A stretch of DNA of 51,345 nt, taken from IMG/VR virus record IMGVR_UViG_3300044699_000037, positions 1 to 51,345 of that record; one strand, written 5' to 3'. Numbering within the stretch: the stretch's first letter is position 1; the number at the start of each line of letters is the position of its first letter. Source of the DNA: a virus. Positions 32,729 to 47,858 of the stretch are shown here, piece after piece. The translations under genes and the position numbers were made by a program. Under the pieces are notes generated by a model. The model did no database searches. It was not told the origin of the DNA and saw only the letters and a program-made list of their open reading frames with translations.

Positions 32729-32941
32729 GTGATCAGCCACAGTATTCTTTATCGGTAGGAGACGGGGGAAGCGACGTTTCATTCATCGAAGGCGGCGGTA
32801 CGGTTCTTCTCCTTCTCCGAGGGTGGGTGCGAACACATCTGTCGGTTCCCCTATCGAAAGCTGTGTTGCAACTGCGTGAGATCCTCCGTAAGTCCAATCA
32901 AGTGCGGGATCTGTGATCCGCACAAGAATAAGATTTATTGA
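32729..32941 (+). CDS. C-x-H-x-C family zinc protein 1, start unresolved
   Basis: The C-terminal part RFFSFSEGGCEHICRFPYR, then KLCCNCVRSSVSPIKCGICD, is a clear member of the paralogous family described under findings. The stop TGA overlaps the glycosyltransferase ATG (TGATG). The frame from GTG 32729 (ISHSILYR) meets TAG at 32756 before the conserved part, and no ATG, GTG or TTG follows it. Either the TAG is an error or the true start (perhaps ACG 32774 after TAGGAG) was altered. Confidence 0.55.
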
Positions 32942-33922
32942 TGAACGATCATCGTATCCCGACTATCCTCAGTCGTCCTGATCGACTCCACGATCCGCTC
33001 TACGTGTTGATGAGCGCGTACAACCCGCCGCGTTTTCGGTCTCGGTGGAAGTTGTTCGCCGATAACGTGAAGCGAGTCGAAGAGGCTGGCGGCATTCCGT
33101 ACATCGTCGAGATTGCCCTCCGGAATAGGGACTTCGTGCTGACGGAGCCAGGCAATCCACGGCATCTCCAGCTTCGGACAAACCACGAGCTATGGTTCAA
33201 GGAGAACGCCTTGAACCTCTTGGCGCAGCGGCTTCCTCACGATTGGAAGTACGTGGCGTGGATCGACGGCGACATCACCTGGAGCCGTGACGACTGGGCT
33301 GACGAGACTCGGCACGCCCTTCAGTCGTGGCCAATCGTCCAGATGTTCAGCCAGGTCCATTACCTGAACGTGGACGAGGAGATCATCAAGACCAGTAAGG
33401 GCTTCGCGTACTCCTTTGCCACCGGACAACCGCTTCCTGAGCTTGGATCGTTCGGTGGATCGTATCCAAGTGGGGCACAATCTTACTGGCATCCCGGCTT
33501 CTGTTGGGCTGCGCGTCGGGATGCCTGGGATGGCATCGGCGGATTGCTGGACAAGTGCATCATGGGGGCCGGTGACTGGCATATGGCCTGGGCCTTCATT
33601 GGGGAGTACGAGCGAGCGATCCATAAGGGATTCCATCCTCGCTACCAACATGTGATTCGCGAGTGGTCACGGCGGGCCGACAATCACATCAAGCGCAACA
33701 TCGGCTATGTGAAGGGCCTGATCCTGCACCACTGGCACGGCTCGATTGCCAAAGCGGCAATACTGGTCGCGGCAGATCCGGCTGATGCAATCGAAGTTCG
33801 ATCCCACCGTCCACCTGTACCGCGACTATCAAGGACTGTTTCAACTCGATGACAACGCCATCGAACTCAGAGACGCCTACCGCAAGTACGCAAGGGACAG
33901 GGACGAAGACTCGCCCTCATGA
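32941..33922 (+). CDS. Glycosyltransferase-like protein, one frameshift
   Basis: Starts at ATG 32941 (TGATG). About 270 residues in the first frame include YVLMSAYNPPRFRSRWKLFA, the DxD-like KYVAWIDGDITWSRDDW, and SYWHPGFCWAARRDAWDGIG with GAGDWHMAWAFIGEYERAI, which match GT-A transferases. At about 33752 the true C-terminus continues in the other frame as RQYWSRQIRLMQSKFDPTVH and then LELRD-type helices to TGA 33922. It is encoded away from the glycan cassette and on the other strand. Confidence 0.7.
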
Positions 33923-34052
33923 ATGGTGGGGGCCGTGTAACACTGATGGGCCTGAAGGCGTGTGTTCCGAGTGCCATCGTATCCATCTCTGTGAACTGGA
34001 GACCTCGGCCTGGATCAACTACCTTAGGGGAAAGGGGCACATCTTCTCATGA
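33919..34052 (+). CDS. Small zinc-binding protein, indel close to start
   Basis: ATG 33919 overlaps the previous TGA. One base out of frame, after a G-run, the sequence reads EWWGPCNTDGPEGVCSECHR and then IHLCELETSAWINYLRGKGH to TGA 34052. Four Cys and two His give one or two zinc sites. About 43 residues if joined. The longer upstream frame from 33849 overlaps the glycosyltransferase C-terminus and is probably spurious. Confidence 0.45.
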
Positions 34053-34777
34053 ATGACGTTCGCATTCCTCGCTGGTCCGACATTGCGCTGGTAAACAACT
34101 CGACGGACTTTGTCGTGACCGATGAGTTCCTGCATGCTCTCCAGGTGCAATATGGACGCGACCTAGCTCCGGCATGGGGCACCTGGGGCGATATTGATCT
34201 AGTACCAGCAGATCAGATTCCTGACAAGCGCATGGTGCTCGGCATCTTCGATACAGCCGATCAAGCCTATGTACTGGGCTACCACGACATCACGCCATCT
34301 GGTTTGCCGGTTGGCAAGGTGTTCGTGGAAACATCTCGCGCTAACAACGCATCGATTTCCGTCGTCACATCGCATGAAATGTGTGAGATGGTCGTCAACC
34401 CGTTCATCAACCGCATGATCCAGGACCTACGACATCCGTTCCGGTTCTGGATCTCGGAAGTGTGCGATGCGGTTGAAGCTGATGAAGACGGGTATGCTAT
34501 CGAGGGAGTCCAGGTATCCAACTTCGTGCTCCCGTCCTACTTCAATGATCTCTCCGGACCGTGGGATCAGGTGGGACTGCTGACTGGGCCACTGCCAACC
34601 CTACGTCCAGGCGGCTATCTAAGCTATATCGAGCATGGCATGTGGCATCAGATCTACGGTAGGAACAGAGCAGCGCGAATCGGAAAGTTCGGTGGAAGCG
34701 GACGGTTGAACCGTGTGGGCCGTCAGAAGATCATATCCACGTTCAACGTGATTCGCCAGGACGTGCAAGCTCCGTAG
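34049..34777 (+). CDS. Zinc metallopeptidase-like phage protein
   Basis: 242 residues. ISVVTSHEMCEMVVNPFI contains a HExxE core, followed by FWISEVCDAVEADEDGYAIE and GVQVSNFVLPSYFND. I recognise this combined pattern (SHE..EM..NP ... E.CD..E ... VSNF..P..F) from phage and bacterial proteins of predicted metallopeptidase fold. No signal peptide, so it may be virion-associated or cytoplasmic. Substrate unknown. ATG overlaps the previous stop (ATGA); an intrinsic terminator follows. Confidence 0.6.
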   Translation: MNDVRIPRWSDIALVNNSTDFVVTDEFLHALQVQYGRDLAPAWGTWGDIDLVPADQIPDKRMVLGIFDTADQAYVLGYHDITPSGLPVGKVFVETSRANNASISVVTSHEMCEMVVNPFINRMIQDLRHPFRFWISEVCDAVEADEDGYAIEGVQVSNFVLPSYFNDLSGPWDQVGLLTGPLPTLRPGGYLSYIEHGMWHQIYGRNRAARIGKFGGSGRLNRVGRQKIISTFNVIRQDVQAP

Positions 34778-34798
34778 CGCAGTCCAAACGTTTTCGGC

Positions 34799-34827
34799 TT
34801 GACACCGAGCCGGGGGTCGTGGCATCG
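34799..34827 (+). promoter_or_regulatory. TTGACACC element, rightward copy (D)
   Basis: CGGCTTGACACCGAG followed by GTGGCATCGTGAC matches the three leftward elements in regions 45330-45358, 48045-48073 and 48859-48887, including the spacing from TTGACA to the TGAC block. Here it overlaps the terminator stem, so it may either be a true promoter for the tRNA-Met region or fortuitous. Confidence 0.3.
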
Positions 34828-34850
34828 TGACCCTCGGCTCGAATTGTTTT
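34807..34850 (+). terminator. Intrinsic terminator
   Basis: A 12-bp stem GAGCCGGGGGTC / GACCCTCGGCTC with one G-T pair and a ten-base loop, followed by AATTGTTTT. Placed 30 bases after the metallopeptidase-like gene. Confidence 0.75.
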
Positions 34851-35162
34851 AGACCGAGCCATGTGGCGACACACGTAGCGGGGACCGCACACCCGCTACA
34901 TGTCGAAGGTACATATGCGACCAGTATTCGGACGACGGTACATTCTAGGATTTGGTTCCACAGGCCGTATGCCTGTGGAGAGCAAAGGTAAACGCAACTC
35001 GCTGCGGCGTGGAAGGACACGCGTGGATCGGCCTCCTTGGGGGCGGGATTCAGCCCGTGGTCCAAGCACGGAAGCTGGTACCAAGGCCAGTCAGCGAGAT
35101 CACTAGGAGGTTCATCATGATTACAGGAGGTGCGCCATGACACTTTAGGGAGGTGATGTGTC
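34851..35162 (+). other. Short-ORF region with start-site hairpin and three ribosome-site motifs
   Basis: No gene is certain. An ORF from ATG 34969 (PVESKGKRNSLRRGRTRVD..., 45 codons to 35106) is basic and possible. Its ATG lies in the loop of a 9-bp hairpin, TCCACAGGC (34957) / GCCTGTGGA (34971). Just before the next gene three AGGAGG-like motifs occur in 50 bases, with a seven-codon ORF (MITGGAP) and a three-codon ORF, suggesting re-initiation or leader-peptide control. Confidence 0.35.
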
Positions 35163-35339
35163 ATGGCACGAGGTGGAAAACAGGGCGGCAAGAGTTCGCC
35201 CAAGATCGGTCGCAGCGGGATGGCGTCCACGAAAGCAAAATACGCAGAGCAGTTCAAGCGTACCGCCCGCAACAAGGCGCGACGGATCAAGCAGCACAAC
35301 GGCGACGAGTTCTACAAGGACTGGCTCGCCAAACAGTAG
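35163..35339 (+). CDS. 58-residue basic protein
   Basis: ATG 35163 preceded by GGGAGGTGATGTGTC. Reads ARGGKQGGKSSPKIGRSGMA, then KAKYAEQFKRTARNKARRIK and ends EFYKDWLAKQ. The Lys/Arg-rich helix suggests RNA or DNA binding. A small basic protein of this shape is frequent in phages; I cannot name a family. Confidence 0.55.
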   Translation: MARGGKQGGKSSPKIGRSGMASTKAKYAEQFKRTARNKARRIKQHNGDEFYKDWLAKQ

Positions 35340-35350
35340 AATGCGAACAT

Positions 35351-35416
35351 CCCGACGAGACGAATTCCTCAGTGGGTGCGCACCCGAAGGCTCGTCGGTC
35401 TGGCCCTGATTGAGGC
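35351..35416 (+). ncRNA. Candidate structured RNA
   Basis: Nested stems: CCGACGAG (35352-35359) pairs with CTCGTCGG (35391-35398), enclosing the palindrome GGGTGCGCACCC; then GGCC...GGCC (35402-35416) follows, and a terminator starts at 35419. The element begins 12 bases after a stop codon and has no ORF. Could be a 3' UTR structure or a small RNA processed from the mRNA. Confidence 0.4.
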
Positions 35417-35418
35417 CA

Positions 35419-35468
35419 CCATACGCGGAAGAGGGATCGGTCTAGAACGTTCCGCGTATGGAATTTTT
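35419..35468 (+). terminator. Intrinsic terminator with 12-bp perfect stem
   Basis: CCATACGCGGAA (35419-35430) pairs with TTCCGCGTATGG (35450-35461), loop 19 bases, followed by AATTTTT. Strong rho-independent signal separating the basic-protein gene from tRNA-Met. Confidence 0.85.
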
Positions 35469-35582
35469 CCCCTGCTGCGTGTGGCACGCGGCCACCTAGG
35501 GCTAGGGATTGTCCTGATGCACTAGCGCCAACGGCGGATTAAGGGTGAGATCTGCGCACCAACTCTCGCCAGCAGGATTTAT

Positions 35583-35660
35583 TGCGCGGATGGAGCAACG
35601 GTGGCTCATCACTCTCATAAGGTGAAAATCAGTAGGGTTCGACTCCCACCTGCGCAACCA
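35583..35660 (+). tRNA. tRNA with CAT anticodon (Met or Ile2), CCA encoded
   Basis: Acceptor TGCGCGG pairs with CTGCGCA, followed by A-CCA. D-stem GAGC/GCTC; anticodon arm TCACT-CTCATAA-GGTGA gives anticodon CAT. The T arm GTAGGGTTCGACTCCCAC has one extra base for a 5-bp stem and 7-base loop (GTGGG expected), probably a single-base insertion. The anticodon stem lacks the three G-C pairs of initiators and position 1 pairs with 72, so an elongator Met or a lysidine-modified Ile tRNA is more likely. Confidence 0.75.
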
Positions 35661-35685
35661 CATATCACCAACTAGAGGATACCGG

Positions 35686-36895
35686 ATGAACAAGTTGTTT
35701 GTAACACTGGTTGTAGTCAGCCTGTCTATGATTGCTCCTGCATACGCCACAACGTGCTCCACCGTGCAATCGATTACTACAGAGATCCGCTATGGCGACA
35801 CCATCAGGGCAGACGTGGTGGGGTGTTCAACACTACCCAATACACCAGGTCCGAAGCACTTCGACTTCTGGCCGCGCCTGGAACCATACAGTTTTGGGAC
35901 CGTGGACAATAGCGACCTTGCCCTTGGGTGTCCCGCTGGCGCATGGCCTGGGACGACTAAGACGATTACTTGGACAACCTACAACACTGCTCATCCAGTG
36001 ATCGACATTCAGTGGTATTACGGGACAACCCAGTTTTGAACCCAATATCGTGAACAACGGGTGCAAGGCGTCCTTCACCCTTACACGCCCAACGGTAGAT
36101 CCTTGCGATCCCATGTCGGTATGCTCAGGCAACACGGTGATGTTCTGCCGGTCGCTCTCTGGCTCGCCCGCCGTAGCGAGTGAGTGCATCGGCCCATTGG
36201 GGATGGTAGTGCCTCCCTCCGTTGGAGGGGTATGCGACTGTCACACCGTGACGGTAAAGGTGCCCAAGCCACCTGATGCCCAACTGGCATACACCACTAT
36301 CGCGGCTGAGACTGGGGCCTGGGCCACCATGATGTACGGGATGTCCGTAGCGGGCTGGCCCCCCTGGACTGCCATCACAACCAGGGCGATATCCAGGTTT
36401 CTGGCAGCCATTTCGGTGGCGGCAGCGGCACTTGCCGAGGACCCGCCAGATCTCGTCAACGCCCAAGTCCTACCGGATGTGTTGACCCTTCTGGAGCCTC
36501 CCGTAACTAGCGGCGGGGATGTGTACGGGGTGCAGACACTCACCACGGCAGACGGCTGCACGGCGACCCAGTGCGCCAACATGAACACGATCATGAACAA
36601 GCTGAATCAGGCCCAGGCCAAGCTGCGGGCGTCTCAGCAGGCGCTCGACAGGTGGGCCGGGTGTGTTCAACTCAACTGCGCCCCTGCCTATCTTGAACAG
36701 CAACTAGACTACTACGATCAAGTGGTGGTGGGATTTCAGACGGCGTTGTCCCTCCTGCGTAATGTCACGGTGACCTTGAATGATTCGAAGATATGGAAAA
36801 CTGGGCCACGGGATTACAGGCCCTTCTATGCCCCGCTCTACCAGGGCTCGGCGGAATTGCTCACGTGGTCAACGACTAATCTGCAATCACAGTAA
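35686..36895 (+). CDS. Secreted protein with signal peptide, frameshifted near 36030
   Basis: ATG 35686 begins a signal peptide, NKLFVTLVVVSLSMIAPAYA, with AxA cleavage near residue 21. The first frame ends in WYYGTTQF at 36039, but QPSFEPNIVNNGCKASFTLT runs on in the next frame to 36895. The mature part is Cys-rich at first (DPMSVCSGNTVMFCRS, GGVCDCHTVTVKV), then Ala-rich and helical (KLNQAQAKLRASQQALDRWA). A periplasmic or envelope role in the infected cell is likely; family unknown. Joined length about 400 residues. Confidence 0.5.
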
Positions 36896-37092
36896 TGGGC
36901 TGCGACATACGTGTCACGGATATGTATGTCGCGGACTGGGACAAGAGCAGCAAGAGCGTGTCAAGCTGGGGATGGTGGTGGGAAGATTGCGGCCATCTCT
37001 GCCGCTGGGGGCTTGCCGAAGACCTGCCAGGCAAATGCTGCAAGTGCACGAAACGTCACCAAGTTGGATGCGACATCTGCGAGTGGAAATGA
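36895..37092 (+). CDS. C-x-H-x-C family zinc protein 2
   Basis: 65 residues; ATG overlaps the preceding stop as TAATG. Tyr/Trp-rich N-part (VTDMYVADWDKSSKSVSSWG) followed by EDCGHLCRWGLAEDLPGKCC and KCTKRHQVGCDICEWK, which places all six Cys and the His of the family. Followed immediately (ATGA) by a second member of similar N-terminal sequence, so these two are a recent tandem pair. Confidence 0.7.
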   Translation: MGCDIRVTDMYVADWDKSSKSVSSWGWWWEDCGHLCRWGLAEDLPGKCCKCTKRHQVGCDICEWK

Positions 37093-37316
37093 AGAAAACT
37101 ATGGACATGAGGGTGACTCAGGATTACTGCGCCGACTGGCGAAAGAGCAAGTCCGGCGCTCGTTTCTGGGGGTGGTGGTGGATGGTAGACTGCCCACACC
37201 TATGCCTCTATAACGATCCATCGGGGAAATGCTGCGTGTGTATAGGTGAGCAGAATACAACCGCAGGCACATGCGGTATATGCGAGATGTCTCTTACCGG
37301 AGGGACCCATGCTTGA
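37089..37316 (+). CDS. C-x-H-x-C family zinc protein 3
   Basis: 75 residues from ATG 37089 (ATGA overlap). MRVTQDYCADWRKSKSGARF parallels the previous protein, then VDCPHLCLYNDPSGKCCVCI and GTCGICEMSLTGG. An in-frame opening far upstream (to 36780) lies inside the secreted-protein gene and is not coding. Confidence 0.7.
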   Translation: MKKTMDMRVTQDYCADWRKSKSGARFWGWWWMVDCPHLCLYNDPSGKCCVCIGEQNTTAGTCGICEMSLTGGTHA

Positions 37317-37499
37317 ATGCCGACATGCGTGGCGCGGGATGGCTGACGACCTCCGCATCGGTGCGGTAAACAGTTCCTCCACTCGGCTGATGCCCATGTC
37401 TGCCGGTGTGGAGCGCGGGATGACGAGGACCCGTTCTGGGTGTCGAAGTCCCATAGGCCGGAAGAAGAGTCCCACTGGAAGGAACCCAATCGACGGTAG
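37309..37499 (+). CDS. Small Cys/His protein, frameshifted near 37350
   Basis: ATG 37309 has GGAGG six bases upstream and overlaps the previous stop by eight bases. The first frame gives LECRHAWRGMADDLR, and the next frame continues HRCGKQFLHSADAHVCRCGA and DEDPFWVSKSHRPEEESHW to TAG 37499. The joined ~63-residue protein would hold C-x2-H and C-x10-H-x-C-x-C, likely one zinc site. Unrecognised and distinct from the 12-member family. Confidence 0.4.
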
Positions 37500-37508
37500 A
37501 CTGTCTAT

Positions 37509-37751
37509 GTGGTCAACCTTACTGCCCCCGTAATAATCCGTGTCATCATCTGTGTAACGCTGCTGACCCTGACAGTCCCGATCGGATCTGGCACCTCCCA
37601 GCAAGGACTGGAGGAACACATCACGATTAAGTGGTGTCAGTGGGCGACGACAGACGTGAAAGGACAGTTGCACGTTCAGCGACAGGTGATGATGGACGAC
37701 AAGCCCATCGGGACTCCACACAATCAGTTGGTTCTCTATCCCGGTTCCTGA
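37509..37751 (+). CDS. Small exported or membrane protein
   Basis: 80 residues from GTG 37509. Hydrophobic N-terminus NLTAPVIIRVIICVTLLTLT acts as signal or anchor, followed by a polar domain (LEEHITIKWCQWATTDVKGQ, LHVQRQVMMDDKPIG). Its start lies ten bases after the previous stop. Unrecognised. Confidence 0.5.
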   Translation: MVNLTAPVIIRVIICVTLLTLTVPIGSGTSQQGLEEHITIKWCQWATTDVKGQLHVQRQVMMDDKPIGTPHNQLVLYPGS

Positions 37752-37772
37752 GCCAGAGCCAGCACCAGCGAA

Positions 37773-38528
37773 ATGAACGAAATCGAACAGGAACAACTGC
37801 GTCAAGCCTTCGAGATGGCCGGGTTCCCGACCAACAAGGCGACGGAGCCTGTTCCCTGGTCTGATCGGCTTGCTGATCTGGCTGGACTCATGGGTGGAGC
37901 CAACCCATCGAAGTTCGGGCTACGGATTCCCATGCAGGCACTCACCAACATGCTCAAGCAGATGGCTGGCGAGTGGCGGTGGTCACGTACCCATGAGGCC
38001 CCGTCGAGACAGGTGATCCGAGATTTGAACAATCCGGCCACCGTCGAAGCGGTGGAGAAGTTCCTCGCCCCGATTCCTGACACAAGCAAGTTGAGCCCGC
38101 TCAGTCAGGGAACCAACGTGGTAGCGTTTCAGGCCGGAGACAAGGTTCTGAAGATGCGGATTCCGACCTTCCTCGAACGCCGCCTCGGGGAGCCGCTGAG
38201 TGAATTAGCAGAGCAGTGGAATGCTGCCGGACGTGATCTCCCTGACATCATGATCCCGAATCTACGACTTCAGGAAGCTCCTGGGATGCTGTTGGCAGAA
38301 CAGCCGTTAGCTAGGCCATTCTCTGAACGATGGGCTAAGTCTCAGAAACCAGCGTCGAACGATCCGCGAGGATGGCCTGACATTGAGGCGATGCTAGGAG
38401 ACGCGATGAAGGAACGCGGGTATGGATATCGCGATCTTCATGCTGGTCAGGTAGGGTTCATGCCGAAGGACAAGATCCCCCGCATCTGGGACTACGACGT
38501 GCCTGTGCCGCCTGTCTTCCTAGAGTAG
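37773..38528 (+). CDS. Protein kinase-like fold protein
   Basis: 251 residues. An N-terminal helical region (~95 residues) is followed by SPLSQGTNVVAFQAGDKVLK, which looks like a glycine loop and the strand bearing the ATP-binding Lys. RGYGYRDLHAGQVGFMPKD then mimics the catalytic loop RDLHxxN (here Gln instead of Asn), and RIWDYDVPVP stands where DFG would be. Small kinase-fold proteins with these motifs occur in phages. Substrate unknown and activity uncertain given the N to Q change. Last rightward gene; its end overlaps the convergent gene by nine bases. Confidence 0.5.
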   Translation: MNEIEQEQLRQAFEMAGFPTNKATEPVPWSDRLADLAGLMGGANPSKFGLRIPMQALTNMLKQMAGEWRWSRTHEAPSRQVIRDLNNPATVEAVEKFLAPIPDTSKLSPLSQGTNVVAFQAGDKVLKMRIPTFLERRLGEPLSELAEQWNAAGRDLPDIMIPNLRLQEAPGMLLAEQPLARPFSERWAKSQKPASNDPRGWPDIEAMLGDAMKERGYGYRDLHAGQVGFMPKDKIPRIWDYDVPVPPVFLE

Positions 38529-38750
38529 CGTGTGTTCGCAGTAGGCGTTTTCCTCGTACGGCCTCTTGCTCGCCTGTTCGTGCTGCCCGCAACAAACCAC
38601 GCATAGGTTACTTCTCTTCCCTCGACATAGGCAGCATGCCCCACCCATCAGGTACCAACATACGTGAGGACATTCTGGCGTGATCTGAAGTGTCCAGGAG
38701 TCGGACGACGACGCCATCAGCCTACTATTGCTCTCCGAGACGAATATCAT
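38520..38750 (-). CDS. C-x-H-x-C family zinc protein 4
   Basis: 76 residues. TPECPHVCWYLMGGACCLCR then GKRSNLCVVCCGQHEQASKR, with an extra Cys after the last knuckle, as in the relative two genes upstream. ATG overlaps the preceding stop (ATGA). Last gene of the leftward early region; it converges with the kinase-like gene without a visible terminator. Confidence 0.7.
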   Translation of the reverse strand: MIFVSESNSRLMASSSDSWTLQITPECPHVCWYLMGGACCLCRGKRSNLCVVCCGQHEQASKRPYEENAYCEHTLL

Positions 38751-38941
38751 GGCTTCAACTTCTTCCGCATGTACGCCTGGATACCCTCGGCGTGCGGATC
38801 AGGCGTACTCTTCATGTAATCCCAAGCAGCCGCGATAGCCTGATCGATAGTATCATCACGCACTCTCGCAACGTGAGCCCGAGCGTTATCAACCTCTTCA
38901 CGTAGAGCCTCCAGTTCCCGGCGATCAATTTCGTCCATCAT
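38747..38941 (-). CDS. Small coiled-coil protein
   Basis: 64 residues from ATG 38941 (GGAG upstream). Heptad-rich N-terminus DRRELEALREEVDNARAHVA, then IDQAIAAAWDYMKSTPDPHA and a basic end. Longer open frame upstream overlaps zinc protein 5 and is rejected. Sandwiched between two zinc-family genes. Confidence 0.5.
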   Translation of the reverse strand: MMDEIDRRELEALREEVDNARAHVARVRDDTIDQAIAAAWDYMKSTPDPHAEGIQAYMRKKLKP

Positions 38942-39419: not shown

Positions 39420-39434
39420 AGCCTCCTCCAGTCA

Positions 39435-40551: not shown

Positions 40552-41012
40552 CGAGGTACCCACTCCACCACGAACCCAGACCCCTGAACGGATCGATTCA
40601 CCGTGTCCTGGATAATCAGGCTGATTCTGGCATAGGCGTTGTTGAACCCTTCCAGTCGAATAAATCCCTGCCAGCGTCCCAGGATAAATGGGCTGGTTAC
40701 CTCGCCGGGTAAAACCACACGATTGGAGTCCAGGAGTTGGGTCACGAACCCGCCTGACTGGGCCGACAGGAACCCTCGTCCCGTATAGCTCGTATCCACC
40801 GTCACCCCATCAGGCAACAGTCTGGCAATGGTCAAGGCGTGCGGAGCATACTGATCGTTGATCGGGGTAAACATCGAGAACACAAAATCCACATGGGGAA
40901 GAAGACGATCACACTCCAGTGCCCAGCCTCTTACTTCAGGTTGAAGTGCTTGCCCTTGAATGAGTGTGAGGTTATGTTGCACCTTCGCCAGCGTGTCGGT
41001 CGTCACGTCCAT
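40548..41012 (-). CDS. Hypothetical beta-rich protein
   Basis: 154 residues; ATG 41012 has GGAG seven bases upstream. HVDFVFSMFTPINDQYAPHA and GFIRLEGFNNAYARISLIIQ suggest a compact beta/alpha fold. Overlaps the DAARAK gene upstream by 41 bases. Unrecognised. Confidence 0.5.
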   Translation of the reverse strand: MDVTTDTLAKVQHNLTLIQGQALQPEVRGWALECDRLLPHVDFVFSMFTPINDQYAPHALTIARLLPDGVTVDTSYTGRGFLSAQSGGFVTQLLDSNRVVLPGEVTSPFILGRWQGFIRLEGFNNAYARISLIIQDTVNRSVQGSGFVVEWVPR

Positions 41013-41328
41013 TGGTGGTCTCCTGTTTGATCAGAGTGCACGTGTCGCACACCTGATTGCTGTGGATTTCCCACGCATTATCCGGCTCCGGTAGTGCTCT
41101 CAACATCACATTTGCTCTATGCTCGGACTCTAGTATGGCCCGCAGCCCCGCCGTCTGCTCGGCGGCGTGAGCGTCCTTGTATGCCTCGATCGTCTGCGCG
41201 AGGGTTGCCTTGCTGTCTGGACTGTCCCAATCCTTCCAGAACGCCTCAGCCCACGTCTCGGCAATCGTCGCGCCTGTCACCTTCCTTTTGTAAGCAGCTT
41301 GATCCTTCGCGCGCGCCGCGTCGCTCAT
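40972..41328 (-). CDS. DAARAK/AAEQTA paralogue 1
   Basis: 118 residues beginning SDAARAKDQAAYKRKVTGAT. A helix ends in AYKDAHAAEQTAGLRAILES, then a knuckle NQVCDTCTLIKQE at the C-terminus. Fourth in transcription order of four consecutive paralogues sharing the first eight codons almost identically, and coupled by ATGA. Confidence 0.55.
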   Translation of the reverse strand: MSDAARAKDQAAYKRKVTGATIAETWAEAFWKDWDSPDSKATLAQTIEAYKDAHAAEQTAGLRAILESEHRANVMLRALPEPDNAWEIHSNQVCDTCTLIKQETTNGRDDRHAGEGAT

Positions 41329-41672
41329 CCCGGCCCCTCGGGGGCGGTTTCAAACAGTAGCCGATCCATCGTGCAGTCTCGACACCCGCACTTCCACGTC
41401 GGATCATCGCTCGTCGCATGTAGGATCAGCCCATCCGTCCAAGCCCTTCGTAGTCGAGCCAGTAGCCCCGCCGTCTGCTCGGCGGCGTAAGCCACCAGGA
41501 TCTTCGCGTAGTGTGCGGCAATCTCATCGCGATGCTCTCGGACCCATGCCTCAGTCTCCTCATCACACGGGAACCACTGCCCACCGAAGTCGATGCCCCA
41601 CGTCCCGTCATCGTTCGCCAGCACCCTGATCCACTGATCGGCTCGTTCCTTCGCCCGCGCCGCGTCGGTCAT
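41325..41672 (-). CDS. DAARAK/AAEQTA paralogue 2
   Basis: 115 residues from ATG 41672 (ATGA). TDAARAKERADQWIRVLAND, then LVAYAAEQTAGLLARLRRAW and a C-terminal zinc-like WKCGCRDCTMDRL, ending TAPEGPG. The C-terminal knuckle parallels that of paralogue 1. Confidence 0.55.
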   Translation of the reverse strand: MTDAARAKERADQWIRVLANDDGTWGIDFGGQWFPCDEETEAWVREHRDEIAAHYAKILVAYAAEQTAGLLARLRRAWTDGLILHATSDDPTWKCGCRDCTMDRLLFETAPEGPG

Positions 41673-41989
41673 CCCTGCCCCTCGGGGGCGAGGCGATTCA
41701 GCGTGCGGTCGAGGTCTGCCCACCACTCTTGAGAATCCTTTGCATCGGCGATTCTCTGGAGCAGCACCCGCAGCGCCGCCGTCTCAGCCCGCAATGATAC
41801 GAGTTCATCGTGGGCCTTCGTGAACGTGATGTAGCTATCGGCCCACTTGTCGATCTCGGCTTGCAGCGTCGCCGTCTGCTCAGCGGCGGCATTCCAACCA
41901 GCCTTAAAAGCGTCCTCTTCACGGTCGGGTTCGTAGCGCCGTATGTCGTAAAAGTCTTGCCACGCCTTCGCCCGCGCCGCGTCGGTCAT
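41669..41989 (-). CDS. DAARAK/AAEQTA paralogue 3
   Basis: 106 residues. TDAARAKAWQDFYDIRRYEP, FKAGWNAAAEQTATLQAEID, and a long coiled coil (VSLRAETAALRVLLQRIADA), ending LAPEGQG. Lacks the C-terminal Cys pair of its neighbours. Confidence 0.55.
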   Translation of the reverse strand: MTDAARAKAWQDFYDIRRYEPDREEDAFKAGWNAAAEQTATLQAEIDKWADSYITFTKAHDELVSLRAETAALRVLLQRIADAKDSQEWWADLDRTLNRLAPEGQG

Positions 41990-42321
41990 TCCCGTAAGGC
42001 CATAATCGCCTGTGCCTCGGCGACGAGTTCCGGCGCGATGCCATCAATTAGCGCGGAACCGATTAGTTGTCGTTGTCGCGCCACCAGCGCCCGCAGCGCC
42101 GTCGTCTGCGCCCAGATCTGATCAATCACCTCACGCTGAGACCCCTGTAGTGCAGCATGCTCAGACTTGAGTTTCGCCGTCTGCTCGGCGGCGTAGGCGT
42201 CGAGGGCCTCGATGATTCGGATGTGCAGCGTGCATGGCCCGGTCTCATTGGCACACGCCCCGCCGCCGTCACAGTAGGGCAGCTTCACGGTGGCCGCCTT
42301 CGCGCGCGCCGCGTCGCTCAT
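41986..42321 (-). CDS. DAARAK/AAEQTA paralogue 4
   Basis: 111 residues from ATG 42321 (ATGA). SDAARAKAATVKLPYCDGGG, then CANETGPCTLHIRIIEALDA and YAAEQTAKLKSEHAALQGSQ and a helical tail. The three-Cys loop lies before rather than after the AAEQTA motif. First of the four in transcription order. Confidence 0.55.
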   Translation of the reverse strand: MSDAARAKAATVKLPYCDGGGACANETGPCTLHIRIIEALDAYAAEQTAKLKSEHAALQGSQREVIDQIWAQTTALRALVARQRQLIGSALIDGIAPELVAEAQAIMALRE

Positions 42322-42680
42322 AGTCCTGTTTGTTCCTTCACAGAGCACCGGCCCGTTCGCATCTTCTTGAGTGTGGTCGCATAGCCGACCCCGATGGGGT
42401 TAGCGGTCGCGTTGTAGAAGTACACGTACACCGTTACGTCAGCGTCGCCATCCTCAACGTTCTCGAATAGCAACACCAGATCGTCGGTCTCGCTAATCGC
42501 GAACGGGAACTTGGTATAGACCAGCTTGTTGTCTACCGTTTCGTAGGTTCTGATCGGCACGGGAGAACCGAAGACATGTTCCCCGTTGCGAATCACCGAC
42601 ATGTTGCTCGCCATCTCTGGCGGCAGCACTTCCCCGTTCACCCTCTTGTAGGCCACGATCTCCAGCGATCCGTATCTCAT
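42318..42680 (-). CDS. Hypothetical beta-rich protein
   Basis: 120 residues (GSLEIVAYKRVNGEVLPPEM, then DDLVLLFENVEDGDADVTVY and VYFYNATANPIGVGYA). Strand-turn pattern suggests a single beta-sandwich. Unrecognised. Confidence 0.5.
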   Translation of the reverse strand: MRYGSLEIVAYKRVNGEVLPPEMASNMSVIRNGEHVFGSPVPIRTYETVDNKLVYTKFPFAISETDDLVLLFENVEDGDADVTVYVYFYNATANPIGVGYATTLKKMRTGRCSVKEQTGL

Positions 42681-42683
42681 GGC

Positions 42684-43109
42684 TTACCTAACACCGAGGC
42701 CGGTTGGGGTTGCCCCGAGGGTGCCAACAAAAGGGAGACTGATTTCTCCATCGCACGGGGTTGTTCCGGCTGGCCCTGTTGCTGCCACATTGACCCAGTA
42801 GGTTCCGTTCGTCAAGGTCCCAAGTGCCGTGATGGGTAGATTCACCGTAAGTGGCCCAGGGGTTCCTGGTGTCAGTCCCAGGCTCGATGTTGTGACGTTC
42901 ACTGTCGTGACTCCTGTCGTGGCTGTGCAGACATTCGGGCTTCGTGCGAACTTCACCACCCACGCACTAGTGGTCGTAGTGCCGTCCGGTTGGTTCCAGC
43001 TTAGGATACTCCCTGGACCGCACAATCCGCCAGGGCAGTTGTTCTGTGCTGCTGCGGTTGCCGTGACACCACACAACACCCCGATGATGACGAGTACGAG
43101 GCGTACCAT
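42684..43109 (-). CDS. Secreted Ig/FN3-like protein
   Basis: 141 residues. Signal peptide VRLVLVIIGVLCGVTATAAA with AxA-type cleavage near residue 21, then a Cys pair (NNCPGGLCGPGS) and a fibronectin-like beta domain (ILSWNQPDGTTTTSAWVVKF, then LTNGTYWVNVAATGPAG). Likely envelope or extracellular; role unknown. ATG overlaps the preceding stop (TGATG). Confidence 0.6.
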   Translation of the reverse strand: MVRLVLVIIGVLCGVTATAAAQNNCPGGLCGPGSILSWNQPDGTTTTSAWVVKFARSPNVCTATTGVTTVNVTTSSLGLTPGTPGPLTVNLPITALGTLTNGTYWVNVAATGPAGTTPCDGEISLPFVGTLGATPTGLGVR

Positions 43110-43396
43110 CAGTCCATCAACTTTGATGGCGTGACCAGCGCATTACCTACGATCACGTCGTCCGGTGAAATTGACTTGGACAGGTGAGCCATCTTGGTTG
43201 CCTCCAGGTTCACCTGAGGCGCGTCCTTGAACTTCCCCTCTTCGTCGATCACCATCACCATCTGGCTATCAAGGTGGACTAGCTCGATCATGTCGCACTT
43301 GAGGTGACCGTATAACTCCTCCAGGGTCCACGAGTGCCCCACGGGTGATACCTTCTCCGATGTCCCATCCGCTCGATACAGCACTGGTGTTTGCAT
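43109..43396 (-). CDS. DUF3846-like protein
   Basis: 95 residues. HSWTLEELYGHLKCDMIELV, VMVIDEEGKFKDAPQVNLEA and PDDVIVGNALVT match the layout of DUF3846 (W.LEEL..., E(V/L)..L, DE.G, N..AT, D.IVG.A). This domain is common in phages and plasmids, function unknown. Family call is from pattern memory. Confidence 0.6.
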   Translation of the reverse strand: MQTPVLYRADGTSEKVSPVGHSWTLEELYGHLKCDMIELVHLDSQMVMVIDEEGKFKDAPQVNLEATKMAHLSKSISPDDVIVGNALVTPSKLMD

Positions 43397-43398
43397 CC

Positions 43399-43713
43399 CT
43401 AGACTCCTTTCTTCTTCCTCTTCGATTTATCTGCCCACTTCTTCCCCATCTCGAATGCTTCCTCTGGTGTTGGATGTGCCGTTCCGAAGATCGGATGTGC
43501 AGCCTTGAACAGCTTGTACACACGATCACGTGTGGCGGCGTCGTAGTATCCCGCGAAGTATCCGAGGTTACTCTTCTGGACTTCCACCGCACGCTCGATG
43601 CTATCTGTCGGCTTGGCTTCCAGGTGGATCGCGATGAGCTTCGTGAAGTACGCGGTGGCTTCTCGTTTCGTCTTGATCTTCATCGCTGGCTCGTACATCT
43701 CTCCTGCTGTCAT
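43399..43713 (-). CDS. Hypothetical helical protein
   Basis: 104 residues. AMKIKTKREATAYFTKLIAI, then EVQKSNLGYFAGYYDAATRD and EEAFEMGKKWADKSKRKKKG. The motif R....E....NLGY.AGYYD.ATR.RV..LF...HP.FG is one I know from small phage proteins of unknown role. ATGA overlap with the upstream gene. Confidence 0.6.
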   Translation of the reverse strand: MTAGEMYEPAMKIKTKREATAYFTKLIAIHLEAKPTDSIERAVEVQKSNLGYFAGYYDAATRDRVYKLFKAAHPIFGTAHPTPEEAFEMGKKWADKSKRKKKGV

Positions 43714-44096
43714 TTTAGGTATTCCCTTTCCAGGCCATCAGCAATTGCCTTAAATGACCACCGCGCTCTATTTCTCTTTCCATCGTGCCACCCATCGTTG
43801 GCTTCCGTGCATGATAGCAGCTCTCCTCGTGGATACGTGATGCCAGGATCTGGGATTTCGAGTCCGTAGTATCGGGCCACTCTTGGAGGTAGCACAGCAT
43901 CTCTTCCACCAAATTCGTACTCGCCACCTCGCTGCATCCACTTCATGTGAAGGTCTTTTGCCGCGATATCGCATGCTACACCGAGACAGCAATAGGAGTT
44001 ATCTCTCTGCCGCAACATCCCTTCACCCTGGCGGTACTTTCCGGATCGCAGCGCCTCCACCCACTTCTTGATACGTCGCTTCTGTGTGGCTGTCAT
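43710..44096 (-). CDS. Conserved phage protein (YCCLGV motif)
   Basis: 128 residues. RIKKWVEALRSGKYRQGEGM, then DNSYCCLGVACDIAAKDLHM and WSFKAIADGLEREYL. The W..ALRSG.Y.Q..G.L.....YCCLGV.C pattern is widespread in phage and plasmid hypothetical proteins. No catalytic role is established that I can name. Confidence 0.65.
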   Translation of the reverse strand: MTATQKRRIKKWVEALRSGKYRQGEGMLRQRDNSYCCLGVACDIAAKDLHMKWMQRGGEYEFGGRDAVLPPRVARYYGLEIPDPGITYPRGELLSCTEANDGWHDGKRNRARWSFKAIADGLEREYLK

Positions 44097-44120
44097 TGAT
44101 CCTCCTCTCTAAAAGATTGG

Positions 44121-44194
44121 CTGGCATGGCAGGATTCGAACCTGCACCGCCCACCTTAACGGGGTGGTGTACTACCAGTTGTACGACATGCCAG
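44121..44194 (-). tRNA. tRNA-Asn (GTT), unusual C33
   Basis: Acceptor CTGGCAT with ATGCCAG, T arm GCAGG-TTCGAAT-CCTGC, anticodon arm CCACC-CCGTTAA-GGTGG giving GTT. Position 33 is C, not the almost invariant U. CCA not encoded. Either a base error or an odd tRNA with altered U-turn. Confidence 0.8.
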
Positions 44195-44198
44195 TGGG

Positions 44199-44270
44199 GT
44201 GACGGGTGGGGCTCGAACCCACATGTGCGAGATCCACAATCTCGTGCGTTACCAATTACGCTACCGCCAC
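44199..44270 (-). tRNA. tRNA-His (GTG)
   Basis: Acceptor GTGGCGG with CCGTCAC, D arm AGCGTAATTGGTAACGC, anticodon arm CGAGA-TTGTGGA-TCTCG giving GTG, T arm GTGGG-TTCGAGC-CCCAC. The discriminator would be C73, as in bacterial tRNA-His. Four bases from tRNA-Asn. Confidence 0.85.
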
Positions 44271-44271
44271 A

Positions 44272-44535
44272 CTATTTCACCTGCTCCGTTGGAATCGTCT
44301 CTGGACAGGGCACCGTTACTTTTCCACGGTGACAGACCAGGCTCTGTGTCGTGGTCGATGATCGACCAGCATCACACACCGTGTAGTAATGATATTCCCC
44401 GCATGTGCTGGTTCGAAACCAGTACACGATACAGCCCTCGTTCTCCAGAACCTTTCCGGATTTTATGTCTGTCTCGCATGTACATCCGGCAAGCAACGCC
44501 AATGCAGCGAGCGTGGAAACGACCATGTGTATCAT
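44272..44535 (-). CDS. Lipoprotein
   Basis: 87 residues. VVSTLAALALLAGCTCETDI contains a lipobox LAGC at Cys 18, so the mature protein would be lipidated. The remainder is Cys-rich (NEGCIVYWFRTSTCGEY, TVCDAGRSSTTTQ, CHRGKVTVPCPE) and probably disulphide-bonded outside the cytoplasm. Could alter the infected-cell surface (for example superinfection exclusion); that is inference. Confidence 0.6.
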   Translation of the reverse strand: MIHMVVSTLAALALLAGCTCETDIKSGKVLENEGCIVYWFRTSTCGEYHYYTVCDAGRSSTTTQSLVCHRGKVTVPCPETIPTEQVK

Positions 44536-44544
44536 GAAACCTCC

Positions 44545-44805
44545 TCAACACGAACAGGTGAACGGCACGGTGGTTCGCTCTTTCTCCTTAACCTTCACAT
44601 CTCGGATGATCTCATAGCTCAACCAGAACTTCTCCCAGGAATCACTGTCCCACACCTCCTTGTACCCTTCGTTGTTGTCGTATGTGTAGTTGCCGCCATT
44701 CACGTATCCGTCTGCTGCGCTCATGAGCATTTCGTACGACTGGCCGATCCTGCTGGCCAGGTCTCTCACATTCCGTTTCGCGTACTCCAGCCGGTCGAGT
44801 TTCAT
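44545..44805 (-). CDS. Hypothetical protein
   Basis: 86 residues from ATG 44805 (ATGA). Helical N-half (RLEYAKRNVRDLASRIGQSY), then DSWEKFWLSYEIIRDVKVKE and a final CSC. Unrecognised. Confidence 0.5.
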   Translation of the reverse strand: MKLDRLEYAKRNVRDLASRIGQSYEMLMSAADGYVNGGNYTYDNNEGYKEVWDSDSWEKFWLSYEIIRDVKVKEKERTTVPFTCSC

Positions 44806-45116
44806 GGCTTGATCGCTGGATGCGTCCACTCATGCCGCAGAGACGTGATCGTTCCTGGGTACAGGAACACGAAGAAACGTTCCCCCGGCAGTACGGTATC
44901 GTCCAGGTAGGGATCGACAATACCGATCGTATCGACCAGTGGCGTCGCACGATCCAGGCCATCCAACCCTACGTGCATCCCTGGGCTCAGTTCCATCGCT
45001 GCCTCGACTGGGATCACTGCGATGTGGATCGCGTCACGCTGTGCATCCTTGTCGAGGATGTCGAGGATCTTCCCAATCTTCCACGTCGTCACATCACTCA
45101 TCGCTTGATTGCTCAT
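44802..45116 (-). CDS. Hypothetical beta-rich protein
   Basis: 104 residues from ATG 45116 (ATGA). TTWKIGKILDILDKDAQRDA, then MELSPGMHVGLDGLDRATPL and ERFFVFLYPGTITSLRHEWT. The last part resembles small proteins with a conserved F-x-F-L-x-P core in phages. Function unknown. Confidence 0.5.
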   Translation of the reverse strand: MSNQAMSDVTTWKIGKILDILDKDAQRDAIHIAVIPVEAAMELSPGMHVGLDGLDRATPLVDTIGIVDPYLDDTVLPGERFFVFLYPGTITSLRHEWTHPAIKP

Positions 45117-45322
45117 TTGCCTTCCTCCCATGTACACAATTCGCACCAGAGATCGCGTGTCCCGGCGCTACAGGAACAGCAGTGCGTGAATGTTCCGCCT
45201 CTACAGATATGCGAACACGTCGCGTGGAAATAGACGTGGAGATCCGGCATGGCATGAAGCGTCATTCTGTAATACTTCCACACGGTGTACCGATTGGCCT
45301 GATCCGATTCGAGCTTCAACAT
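45113..45322 (-). CDS. C-x-H-x-C family zinc protein 6
   Basis: 69 residues from ATG 45322, seven bases after an AGGA site. N-part RYTVWKYYRMTLHAMPDLHV, core YFHATCSHICRGGTFTHCCS, then CSAGTRDLWCELCTWEEGK. First gene of an operon that starts at conserved element C. Confidence 0.7.
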   Translation of the reverse strand: MLKLESDQANRYTVWKYYRMTLHAMPDLHVYFHATCSHICRGGTFTHCCSCSAGTRDLWCELCTWEEGK

Positions 45323-45329
45323 GGCAGCA

Positions 45330-45358
45330 TCCTGTCACAACGGTGACCCCGGTGTCAA
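45330..45358 (-). promoter_or_regulatory. Conserved TTGACACC upstream element C
   Basis: TTGACA at 45358-45353, 17-base spacer ending GTTGTG, ACAGGA, seven bases, then ATG 45322. The spacing from TTGACA to the start codon equals that of element B exactly, and GATTC(C/G)GCTTGACACC is shared. It overlaps the stop of the upstream gene by one codon. No -10 consensus is visible where expected. Confidence 0.55.
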
Positions 45359-45672
45359 GCGGAATCGGTGGGCTCTCCCTGCTTGTTCATCCATCGCTGC
45401 ACCATCTCGATATGCCCCACCCGCGCTTGCACAAGCGTGCTGTAACGCTCACAGTCAATCTCCGAGAAGTTCTGCTCGCTCGGGAAGACCATCGTCTCGA
45501 ATATTAGTGGCTTGCCCATGCCAAATCGATGGTCGAGTCCAAGCCACACAGTGCTGACGATCTTACCGTCCGGGAGCGGAGTATAGGCGACACGTTTCTT
45601 CGACAGATCATTGAGGCCCTTGTTCCAGTCCTCCAGGGATATCGGCGTGCCATCCGTATCGTAGTAGCTCAT
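45355..45672 (-). CDS. Conserved phage protein (WLGLDH motif)
   Basis: 105 residues from ATG 45672 (ATGA). SYYDTDGTPISLEDWNKGLN, then KIVSTVWLGLDHRFGMGKPL and IFETMVFPSEQ, ending GHIEMVQRWMNKQGEP. The pattern V.T..LG.D..FG...PL.FETM.F is common in small phage and actinobacterial phage proteins; function unknown. Confidence 0.6.
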   Translation of the reverse strand: MSYYDTDGTPISLEDWNKGLNDLSKKRVAYTPLPDGKIVSTVWLGLDHRFGMGKPLIFETMVFPSEQNFSEIDCERYSTLVQARVGHIEMVQRWMNKQGEPTDSA

Positions 45673-45980
45673 GATGTCTTCGAGTAGACGCCTATGGTGA
45701 ATCGGCAATTCCCGCTATGGCCGAATGGGCGAGCGCAGAGCCCAGCGCCGATATCTTCACCTCTGGGTATCAGGCGTCCGATACGTTCGCCTCCTATCCT
45801 GATCTTGCCTTCCCGTTTTCCGACTTGTAGACACCCCGCAATCCCGTGAATGATGTGTTGACCTGGACGCGTTGCCACCTTGTTACAGTGTCCGGGACCA
45901 CCATCGCAGGTGACGAAGTACCACTCGGCATTATCGGGAATGACCATCGGTTCAAGATTATCGTCTAACAACGTATCCAC
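45669..45980 (-). CDS. Hypothetical Cys/His-containing protein
   Basis: 103 residues from GTG 45980 (alternative ATG in EPMVIPDN). NAEWYFVTCDGGPGHCNKVA, GQHIIHGIAGCLQVGKREGK and LCARPFGHSGNCRFTIGV distribute five Cys and four His, likely zinc-bound. The start overlaps the upstream zinc-ribbon gene. Unrecognised. Confidence 0.45.
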   Translation of the reverse strand: MDTLLDDNLEPMVIPDNAEWYFVTCDGGPGHCNKVATRPGQHIIHGIAGCLQVGKREGKIRIGGERIGRLIPRGEDIGAGLCARPFGHSGNCRFTIGVYSKTS

Positions 45981-46107
45981 ACCTCTTAAAAAGACAGTGG
46001 CCTTTTCCTGGATCGAACGTGGGTTGCTGACATGCGGGGCACACCCATCGACCACGGAGCGCGGGTTTGTCTTTCGGCATTTTTTTCTTCTGAGCTTTCT
46101 TTCTCAT
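45958..46107 (-). CDS. 49-residue zinc-ribbon protein
   Basis: ATG 46107 (ATGA with the upstream stop). Lys-rich N-terminus RKKAQKKKMPKDKPALRGRW, then VCPACQQPTFDPGKGHCLFK and RCGY. A short C-x2-C...C-x4-C ribbon with a basic arm, which could bind nucleic acid. Confidence 0.5.
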   Translation of the reverse strand: MRKKAQKKKMPKDKPALRGRWVCPACQQPTFDPGKGHCLFKRCGYVVRR

Positions 46108-46304
46108 TGGTCTCTGCAGATGTGGCAGCGTCCCACCGACCCTGAGCAAGCACAGCAGAGGGAGGTGATGCGGGACCACCAGCACAGGTGGGGACAGGCA
46201 TACAGCACGGAGAAGCGCGTGTAGAGGGTCTCCCCAATAAGACTAGTGAACACCACTGCCGACGCTTCGTCCGTCCGCGTGAATCTTCTAATGCCGTCCT
46301 TCAA
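46104..46304 (-). CDS. C-x-H-x-C family zinc protein 7
   Basis: 66 residues from TTG 46304, which lies inside the upstream gene's 3' end; GTG at SAVVF is an alternative. Core LYACPHLCWWSRITSLCCAC then SGSVGRCHICRDQ. Shortest C-terminus of the family. Confidence 0.65.
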   Translation of the reverse strand: MKDGIRRFTRTDEASAVVFTSLIGETLYTRFSVLYACPHLCWWSRITSLCCACSGSVGRCHICRDQ

Positions 46305-46515
46305 GAATCGCTTTCACGTCCTCTGCCGCGATGATATGCAGCCGACCGCAGGTGCAGGAGCGGAAGACCAGCTTGTCGCCGTGACAGTCGACCACGTGCT
46401 GGATCACCTGCCTGAATCGTTCCGCGCGCTCCGTCATGAGCCGCAGCCGCACCCGTGTGTCATGGAGTTGCTGCTTCAGTCCCTCTACGGTGTCTTCCAA
46501 CGTGTCGCCGCTCAT
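46288..46515 (-). CDS. Coiled-coil protein with Cys/His cluster
   Basis: 75 residues. Helix EDTVEGLKQQLHDTRVRLRL, then MTERAERFRQVIQHVVDCHG and VFRSCTCGRLHIIAAEDVKA. The helix plus C-x-C...H arrangement suggests a small dimeric zinc protein. Unrecognised. Confidence 0.5.
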   Translation of the reverse strand: MSGDTLEDTVEGLKQQLHDTRVRLRLMTERAERFRQVIQHVVDCHGDKLVFRSCTCGRLHIIAAEDVKAILEGRH

Positions 46516-46617
46516 CTAGTCATCCTCTGGTTCCAACTCGGCGTATTGATCCTCAATCGCCGTGCAGAAGTCGCAGGGGCTCGTCGCGCTGTATTCACCG
46601 CACACTTGGCAGATCAT
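46516..46617 (-). CDS. 33-residue mini zinc ribbon
   Basis: ATG 46617 forms ATGA with the upstream stop. ICQVCGEYSATSPCDFCTAI followed by an acidic tail (EDQYAELEPEDD). C-x2-C-x8-C-x2-C in so few residues can fold only around zinc. May be a degenerate or minimal relative of the neighbouring family; it lacks the C-x-H-x-C part. Confidence 0.5.
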   Translation of the reverse strand: MICQVCGEYSATSPCDFCTAIEDQYAELEPEDD

Positions 46618-46835
46618 GGGTCTTCCTCCTTGTAGATGATGCAGTAGCTACACAGGTAGGTGGAGGCAAACTTGTAACGGCTACAGAGACAGCAGTAATC
46701 GTTGATGCCGGACAGACACATGTGTGGGCAGCTTTTGAAGAATGCCACGTCCTTCACGGCGGTCTCCTCGCACCTCCAGAAGGCGTACAGAGATTGCTCG
46801 ACCAGGACGACGCTCATCGACGGCGTGACGGCCAT
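46614..46835 (-). CDS. C-x-H-x-C family zinc protein 8
   Basis: 73 residues; ATG 46835 has AAGGAG five bases upstream, inside the preceding gene. N-part MSVVLVEQSLYAFWRCEETA, core AFFKSCPHMCLSGINDYCCL, then CSRYKFASTYLCSYCIIYK. Confidence 0.7.
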   Translation of the reverse strand: MAVTPSMSVVLVEQSLYAFWRCEETAVKDVAFFKSCPHMCLSGINDYCCLCSRYKFASTYLCSYCIIYKEEDP

Positions 46836-47038
46836 AGGTGCTCCTTGCAGAGTGAACAAGGGATCGCTCTCGGATCTAGCTGTTTCTTGTGGCACAGGCA
46901 ACAGAGGCCATCGAACCCCGCGTAACACATGTGTGGACAGTCGCTGAAGAAGAACACCATCGAATCTAACTTGTCGTGCCGCTCCCAGCAGACGTAATCT
47001 CCCCTGTCATGGAGTGTCAGGTTAGGGTCGGTGATCAT
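46814..47038 (-). CDS. C-x-H-x-C family zinc protein 9
   Basis: 74 residues from ATG 47038 (ATGA). N-part LTLHDRGDYVCWERHDKLDS, core FFFSDCPHMCYAGFDGLCCL, then CHKKQLDPRAIPCSLCKEHL. Members 8, 9 and 10 are consecutive genes. Confidence 0.7.
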   Translation of the reverse strand: MITDPNLTLHDRGDYVCWERHDKLDSMVFFFSDCPHMCYAGFDGLCCLCHKKQLDPRAIPCSLCKEHLWPSRRR

Positions 47039-47241
47039 AGTGAGTCTTGGTACGCCATGCAGAGATCGCAGAGCGATACGTCCCTGGTCACCTTTTTCTC
47101 GTAGCATATGCAGCACAGATCATCGACGCCGGACTGACACATGTGGTTGCAGCCCGCGAAGAAGAACAGGTCATATGCGTTGTGTGGATACATGCCCCAC
47201 AAGGCGAACCCATCTTCGTCTGTCTCAACCGTGAGCTTCAC
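47035..47241 (-). CDS. C-x-H-x-C family zinc protein 10
   Basis: 68 residues; GTG 47241 is selected because it overlaps the upstream TGA (GTGA). N-part KLTVETDEDGFALWGMYPHN, core FFFAGCNHMCQSGVDDLCCI, then CYEKKVTRDVSLCDLCMAYQ. The Pro of CPH is Asn here. Confidence 0.7.
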   Translation of the reverse strand: MKLTVETDEDGFALWGMYPHNAYDLFFFAGCNHMCQSGVDDLCCICYEKKVTRDVSLCDLCMAYQDSL

Positions 47242-47432
47242 AACTCGCCCTCCAAGACCTCCGACTCCACCGTCACGTTGTTGCCGGGGCTGATGCACAC
47301 GGAGCGGTTGAGTTCGTTCAGGCCCCAGAAGGTTCTGAACCCCTGGTGCTTCACGAACGTCAGCGTCGTCTCCACGTGCTGCGTCTCCCCCTGATGTCCA
47401 TGAATCGTGATCTTCACCTTGTTCCGTTCCAT
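47238..47432 (-). CDS. Small beta-rich protein
   Basis: 64 residues. KVKITIHGHQGETQHVETTL, TFVKHQGFRTFWGLNELNRS, VCISPGNNVTVESEVLEGEL. It resembles the N-terminal strands of the neighbouring zinc family (F-x-x-F-W-G) but has no Cys cluster; possibly a family N-domain without its zinc part. Confidence 0.45.
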   Translation of the reverse strand: MERNKVKITIHGHQGETQHVETTLTFVKHQGFRTFWGLNELNRSVCISPGNNVTVESEVLEGEL

Positions 47433-47436
47433 GCGT

Positions 47437-47637
47437 TTACCCTCCTAGTCGGCAGATTGGACACCACAATGTCTTTCCAGCACACGCACAACATTCTTCG
47501 ATCGTGCCGTCCTTACAGATATGCGGACATTTGGTATGGTGGTAGAGCGATAGCGATTCCTTGGCAAACATCTGCGACCACCAGAAGTAATGCTGTCCTT
47601 CATGCTCGTTGAGGACGACCTTGTAGCGCGGTTTCAT
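47437..47637 (-). CDS. C-x-H-x-C family zinc protein 11
   Basis: 66 residues. N-part RYKVVLNEHEGQHYFWWSQM, core LYHHTKCPHICKDGTIEECC, then ACAGKTLWCPICRLGG. Shares LYHH, CAG and CPICRLGG with member 12 immediately upstream, so a recent tandem duplicate. ATGA overlap. Confidence 0.75.
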   Translation of the reverse strand: MKPRYKVVLNEHEGQHYFWWSQMFAKESLSLYHHTKCPHICKDGTIEECCACAGKTLWCPICRLGG

Positions 47638-47858
47638 GGCTTCCCGCCGAGTCTACAGATTGGACACGTCGTGACCGCCAAACTCCCAGCACAGAGACAG
47701 CATTTCTCGACGCTGCCCTGCACGCACATGTGCGGACACTGGGCATGATGGTAGAGCGTCATCGACCCGTTGGCCTTGGTGAACCGCGTCCACCAGAAGT
47801 ACTTTGATCCTCCTATACCGCCCACCCCGACCTGGTATTCCCCCTTGTCCTGCTTCAT
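47634..47858 (-). CDS. C-x-H-x-C family zinc protein 12
   Basis: 74 residues from ATG 47858 (ATGA). N-part GEYQVGVGGIGGSKYFWWTR, core LYHHAQCPHMCVQGSVEKCC, then LCAGSLAVTTCPICRLGGKP. Confidence 0.75.
   Translation of the reverse strand: MKQDKGEYQVGVGGIGGSKYFWWTRFTKANGSMTLYHHAQCPHMCVQGSVEKCCLCAGSLAVTTCPICRLGGKP

Follow-up and report, generated by a model that had tools for sequence, protein, structure and literature searches.

The window analysed was the entire 51,345-nt stretch of IMGVR_UViG_3300044699_000037, a 51-kb IMG/VR contig classed as linear. Its left 31 kb, on the minus strand, encodes the portal, the terminase and head and virion proteins. In the right arm (31.7-49 kb), a deoxynucleoside monophosphate kinase gene and five tRNA genes are accompanied by about 45 small genes, hardly any of which has a named function. 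Since no replication gene was recognised among the genes scanned on the contig, it may be incomplete. Relatives of the phage in IMG/VR were reached via portal and head protein queries, and a terminase query of the same collection returned no relative. The closest one found, the 63.8-kb G001 (head protein 56%, portal 43%, terminase 37%), has a matching head and packaging block, shares nothing with the right arm and carries no copy of the family described below. Within the left block, two overlapping frames at 2272-3946 (-) match the first and second parts of a single virion protein family (phrog_3287), reflecting a frameshift that is either a sequencing error or programmed. A row of sugar-related genes was recognised by eye at 9648-17465 (-), with glycosyltransferase-like, nucleotide-sugar dehydrogenase-like and hexapeptide acyltransferase-like products, and includes a related pair (13732-14313 and 16710-17465, 43% identity). 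The right arm contains a set of four adjacent paralogous genes at 40972-42348 (-), whose products begin with M[ST]DAARAK and in which repeated DNA (families D1, D2 and D10) is present. It also encodes three exported-looking small proteins (44272-44535 (-), 35686-36039 (+) and 42684-43109 (-)), which are possible candidates for superinfection exclusion; a lipoprotein-like LLAGC start is seen in one of them and a signal-peptide-like start in the other two.

A family of small Cys/His-rich proteins is encoded entirely in the right arm, outside the structural block and among the tRNA and small genes, with the head and packaging genes located elsewhere (Table 1). A six-frame scan of the whole window for C-x-H-x-C-(4-12)-C-C-x-C-(4-14)-C-x2-C returned exactly 12 frames, all at the places and on the strands listed in the initial annotation, and the pattern did not occur in any of 200 base-composition shuffles of the window. 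When a profile made from the twelve copies was searched against the record, the same 12 places and no thirteenth were obtained, with E values of 1.7e-22 to 1e-13 that concern the profile's own training sequences. These results confirm that the twelve members form a real, non-chance, paralogous family, and they support its reported distribution over both strands and several transcription units.

Table 1. Members of the Cys/His family and sites of the promoter-like motif in the right arm.
Feature	Position	Strand	Remarks
Copy a, probably decayed	32759..32941	+	motif frame; TAG at 32756-32758 upstream; no usual start codon
Promoter-like motif, fourth site	34796..34828	+	upstream of the + strand stretch holding b and c
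Copy b, 65 aa	36895..37092	+	stop overlaps start of c (ATGA)
Copy c, 75 aa	37089..37316	+	50% identical to b
Copy d, 76 aa	38520..38750	-	nearest relative e
Copy e, 78 aa	38925..39161	-	
Copy f, 69 aa	45113..45322	-	ATG 6 nt past -10-like hexamer of promoter-like motif
Promoter-like motif, CGCTTGACACC-N-CAGGAT	45323..45361	-	directly before copy f
Copy g, 66 aa	46104..46304	-	TTG start
Copy h, 73 aa	46614..46835	-	overlaps i
Copy i, 74 aa	46814..47038	-	4-nt overlap with j; AlphaFold2 mean pLDDT 83.8
Copy j, 68 aa	47035..47241	-	GTG start
Copy k, 66 aa	47437..47637	-	4-nt overlap with l; 50% identical to l; AlphaFold2 mean pLDDT 71.2
Copy l, 74 aa	47634..47858	-	
Promoter-like motif, GGCTTGACACC-N-GAGGGT	48038..48076	-	heads the unit carrying l, k, j, i, h and g
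Promoter-like motif, third site	48853..48890	-	upstream of genes 48734-48118

In the alignment of the twelve copies, the invariant columns are those of C-x-H-x-C, C-C-x-C and C-x2-C, which amount to seven Cys and one His rather than the six Cys and one His counted originally. Nine copies have a 7-residue gap between the first two elements, two have 8 residues there and one has 11, and the last two elements are 6-11 residues apart; these values replace the ranges of 5-10 and 5-11 given before. An aromatic N-terminus had been described as a conserved trait, and this holds for eight copies ([YF]-x2-W in six, Y-x3-W in two) and fails for the other four, which have neither form. Outside the eight invariant positions, identity between copies is about 18-52%. 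The proteins contain about 10% Cys and 6-15% aromatic residues, and their net charge and pI range from -7 to +5 and from 4.3 to 9.0, respectively. The frame that had been annotated as an ORF at 32729-32941 (copy a) is interrupted by a TAG codon with no later ATG, GTG or TTG before the motif, leaving eleven intact copies of 65-78 aa; for this reason copy a is probably a decayed family member. Recoding of the stop codon was considered, but no suppressor tRNA was found and copy d itself terminates in TAG, so that decay is the preferred explanation.

The copies are compactly arranged. The 4-nt overlaps of b/c, i/j and k/l fit translationally coupled genes, h and i overlap by 22 nt, and another small gene sits between d and e. 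The largest array is a unit running from 48037 to about 46104 (-), which holds l, k, j, i, h and g. Four near-identical sites of a promoter-like motif accompany this layout (Table 1): the exact sequence GCTTGACACC occurs four times against 0.12 expected, every time in the right arm. The repeated motif contains a perfect TTGACA before copy f and at the head of the main array, and at every site a second hexamer follows at a spacing of 17-18, its second base being A and its sixth T. The -10-like hexamer is followed after exactly 6 nt by an ATG at two sites: that of copy f at 45361(-) and, at 48076(-), an in-frame one belonging to the gene that opens the l-k-j-i-h-g unit. This suggests that the transcripts may be leaderless. 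The -10 hexamers are weak, and a generic promoter scan picked none of these sites; the + strand site is overlapped by a strong terminator-like hairpin of 16 pairs (34806-34841 (+)). The motif could be an early promoter read by the host.

The initial annotation knew of no described family with this signature, and database searches agree with it. The best E values were 0.12 in Pfam and 0.16 in PHROGs, there was no match in NCBIfam or PADLOC, and a sequence search of the PDB gave a best E of 0.46, which is not significant. A literature search for the Cys/His motif returned nothing relevant, and tblastn with single copies against phage and plasmid collections gave chance-level matches only. Against 1,525 genomes from four phyla the profile gave zero matches at E <= 1e-4; having no positive control, this search shows little. 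Scans of IMG/VR and 84,980 prokaryote genomes with IUPAC patterns, which were limited to CPH forms or a gap of 7 and may therefore miss relatives, returned out-of-frame matches, low-complexity matches or matches devoid of the last C-x2-C, with the exception of one locus (L220, see below). A partial look-alike in G013 (CPHHC..CCSC..C, E 0.002) is without the last C-x2-C and is not counted among the members. The orphan status of the family thus applies to the collections searched, and close relatives of the phage may lie outside them.

Structures were modelled with AlphaFold2 as the protein chain alone, without metal. The model of copy i, obtained with the twelve-sequence alignment, has strands at residues 7-11, 15-20 and 26-31, followed by the ligand-bearing loop and by two short helices at 47-53 and 62-68 that begin near C-C-x-C and C-x2-C. 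The same three strands were modelled for copy k with lower confidence. Foldseek searches, for which an E below 0.001 was set as the criterion, gave best values of 0.71 (PDB) and 0.12 (BFVD) for copy i and 2.2 (PDB) for copy k; the model is unlike the solved and viral folds in these databases. Zinc binding had been proposed from the Cys/His set. The eight invariant residues make the binding of a metal likely, as judged from the pattern, and their number would suit two zinc ions per protein. Zinc ribbons are built from two CxxC-type knuckles, and just one CxxC pair is common to the copies. Zinc fingers of the RIM/FYVE type (2a20) likewise use several Cys and His ligands, some of them in a C-x-H-x-C stretch, but they differ from the family in ligand spacing, the sequence match is at chance level (E = 6.7) and there is no structural match.

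The Cys/His pattern and the small size of the proteins would also be expected of zinc-finger regulators that bind DNA, RNA or RNA polymerase, each copy at a site of its own in the manner of TraR/DksA, and thereby control phage or host transcription. Phage homologues of TraR such as lambda Orf73 are zinc proteins of about 73 aa that reprogram host transcription (PMC9239242); they are thus similar in size to the family and act on host machinery, and the aromatic-rich N-termini of the family could stack on bases. However, the TraR/DksA zinc finger is defined by CxxC-x17-CxxC (PMC9239242), which the ligand spacing in our alignment (C-x-H-x-C, CC-x-C and C-x2-C, in twelve copies) does not fit, and no nucleic-acid-binding fold was matched at a meaningful E value. 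The copies have no basic character in common. Their spread of charge fits different partners and speaks, if indirectly, against one shared nucleic-acid-binding role. A regulatory role of this kind is rather unlikely.

As for descent, the closest relatives are neighbours: b/c and k/l are each 50% identical, and d/e are 50% identical over 42 residues (E 4e-12). The family therefore expanded through old tandem duplications. In the tree, k/l is the single well-supported fork and the branches are very long, so descent is argued from the neighbouring pairs only. The same pair is the sole close one whose synonymous change is not near saturation (dN 0.44, dS 0.90, ratio near 0.5), the others being saturated or nearly so. 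The duplications are thus old and the proteins have been retained, and positive selection is not demonstrable; the earlier statement that the copies imply selection for diversity is not supported. The k/l ratio suggests constraint, and together with position-specific GC it fits coding genes. Another possible course is that the copies simply accumulated by duplication in a tolerant region and were kept by chance with little function left. The stop codon in copy a and the presence of the M[ST]DAARAK set would agree with this neutral course, but neutral copies would have lost their ligands, whereas in the eleven intact frames all eight are invariant even though synonymous change is close to saturation. 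Neutral accumulation is accordingly considered improbable.

The one clean look-alike found outside the phage is encoded in an unrelated phage (L220, IMGVR_UViG_3300005549_000005; 1350-1493 (-)). This 47-aa protein, MKQEKSCPHICLRNTLCCKCRGYSSNCAECVLSDPNNALSKALDKRQ, has all eight ligands (CPHIC-x5-CCKC-x6-CAEC); unlike the family, it is present as a single copy, of which no further examples were found, and has no N-terminal strand region. Its profile E of 4e-5 makes the similarity look stronger than it is, because the protein was chosen by the pattern, and homology to the family is possible. The gene lies near the major head protein gene in a tightly packed row, overlaps both neighbours by 4 nt and adjoins a glycosyltransferase gene. 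These late neighbours argue against an early takeover role for the look-alike, and they raise the question of whether the family members belong to the virion as subunits or decorations, or assist surface glycosylation as accessory factors, the many versions being retained for the sake of assembly. Glycosyltransferase-like genes are found in the studied phage too. Nevertheless, all twelve copies are situated away from its structural genes, amid tRNA genes and small genes of no known role, and such a function is quite improbable.

Metallothioneins have a very high Cys content and no or few aromatic residues. A metallothionein-like pool taking up zinc or another metal during infection is very improbable, since, although each copy offers seven Cys and an invariant His and many copies would raise dosage, the Cys and aromatic contents given above and the modelled fold do not agree with it, and dosage would favour near-identical copies rather than copies with 25-50% identity.

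Fixed ligands, a variable remainder, a wide range of charge and many copies are best fitted by a metal-held scaffold whose surfaces are re-used. We tentatively favour the explanation, which may well be right though it falls short of being probable, that a metal-stabilised scaffold was duplicated and that its variable surfaces are aimed at different host proteins, such as targets of defence or takeover. In each protein an N-terminal three-strand beta meander would precede a compact metal-binding core formed by the seven Cys and the one His, with two zinc ions as its most likely content; held by the metal, the fold would leave the remaining surface free to change. A single ancestral gene would have been tandemly duplicated in the non-structural arm, and the copies would have diverged to bind different host proteins and, at an early stage of infection, to block or redirect them; the proposed target classes are defence proteins, transcription and metabolism. 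The most likely partners are host proteins, given the location of the genes in an arm of small genes and the TTGACA-type motif ahead of some of them, as in phage SPO1 (PMC6873191) and archaeal rudiviruses (PMC11065993). Weighing against this explanation are the lack of a PADLOC match, the constraint suggested by k/l, the weak -10 hexamers and the hairpin across one motif site.

In SPO1, 26 mostly small host-takeover genes are packed together with their own promoters and shut down various host processes (PMC6873191). That module resembles the right arm in being a small-gene cluster outside the structural genes and, if the motif is a promoter, in having promoters of its own; it differs in comprising 26 genes rather than twelve copies from one family. 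In archaeal rudiviruses an anti-CRISPR has several uncharacterised paralogues, and a conserved promoter is present on the early genes (PMC11065993). Their AcrID1 paralogue sets and early anti-defence genes are likewise diverged copies of small proteins in an accessory region of a small genome, with a shared promoter motif as the counterpart of the promoter-like one here; the proteins are different and the hosts archaeal, and early expression and function were demonstrated there, whereas they are proposed for the family of this phage. Expanded sets of small viral accessory proteins thus have precedents, and the protein and its Cys/His pattern are without precedent as far as the tools reach.

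The twelve copies of this one orphan protein occupy about 5% of the 51-kb contig. If they strike different host proteins, they would constitute a natural set of inhibitors on one stable scaffold, would lead directly to targets in the host or to defence systems of an undersampled lineage, and would be a clean example of gene birth and decay within a small viral family. It is also conceivable, if somewhat unlikely, that the proteins represent a new metal-nucleated microprotein fold serving as a general-purpose binder, with a fixed core and about a dozen surfaces, every one with its own target among host proteins or defence systems; if true, the family would be the viral equivalent, on a small scale, of an engineered library of binders.
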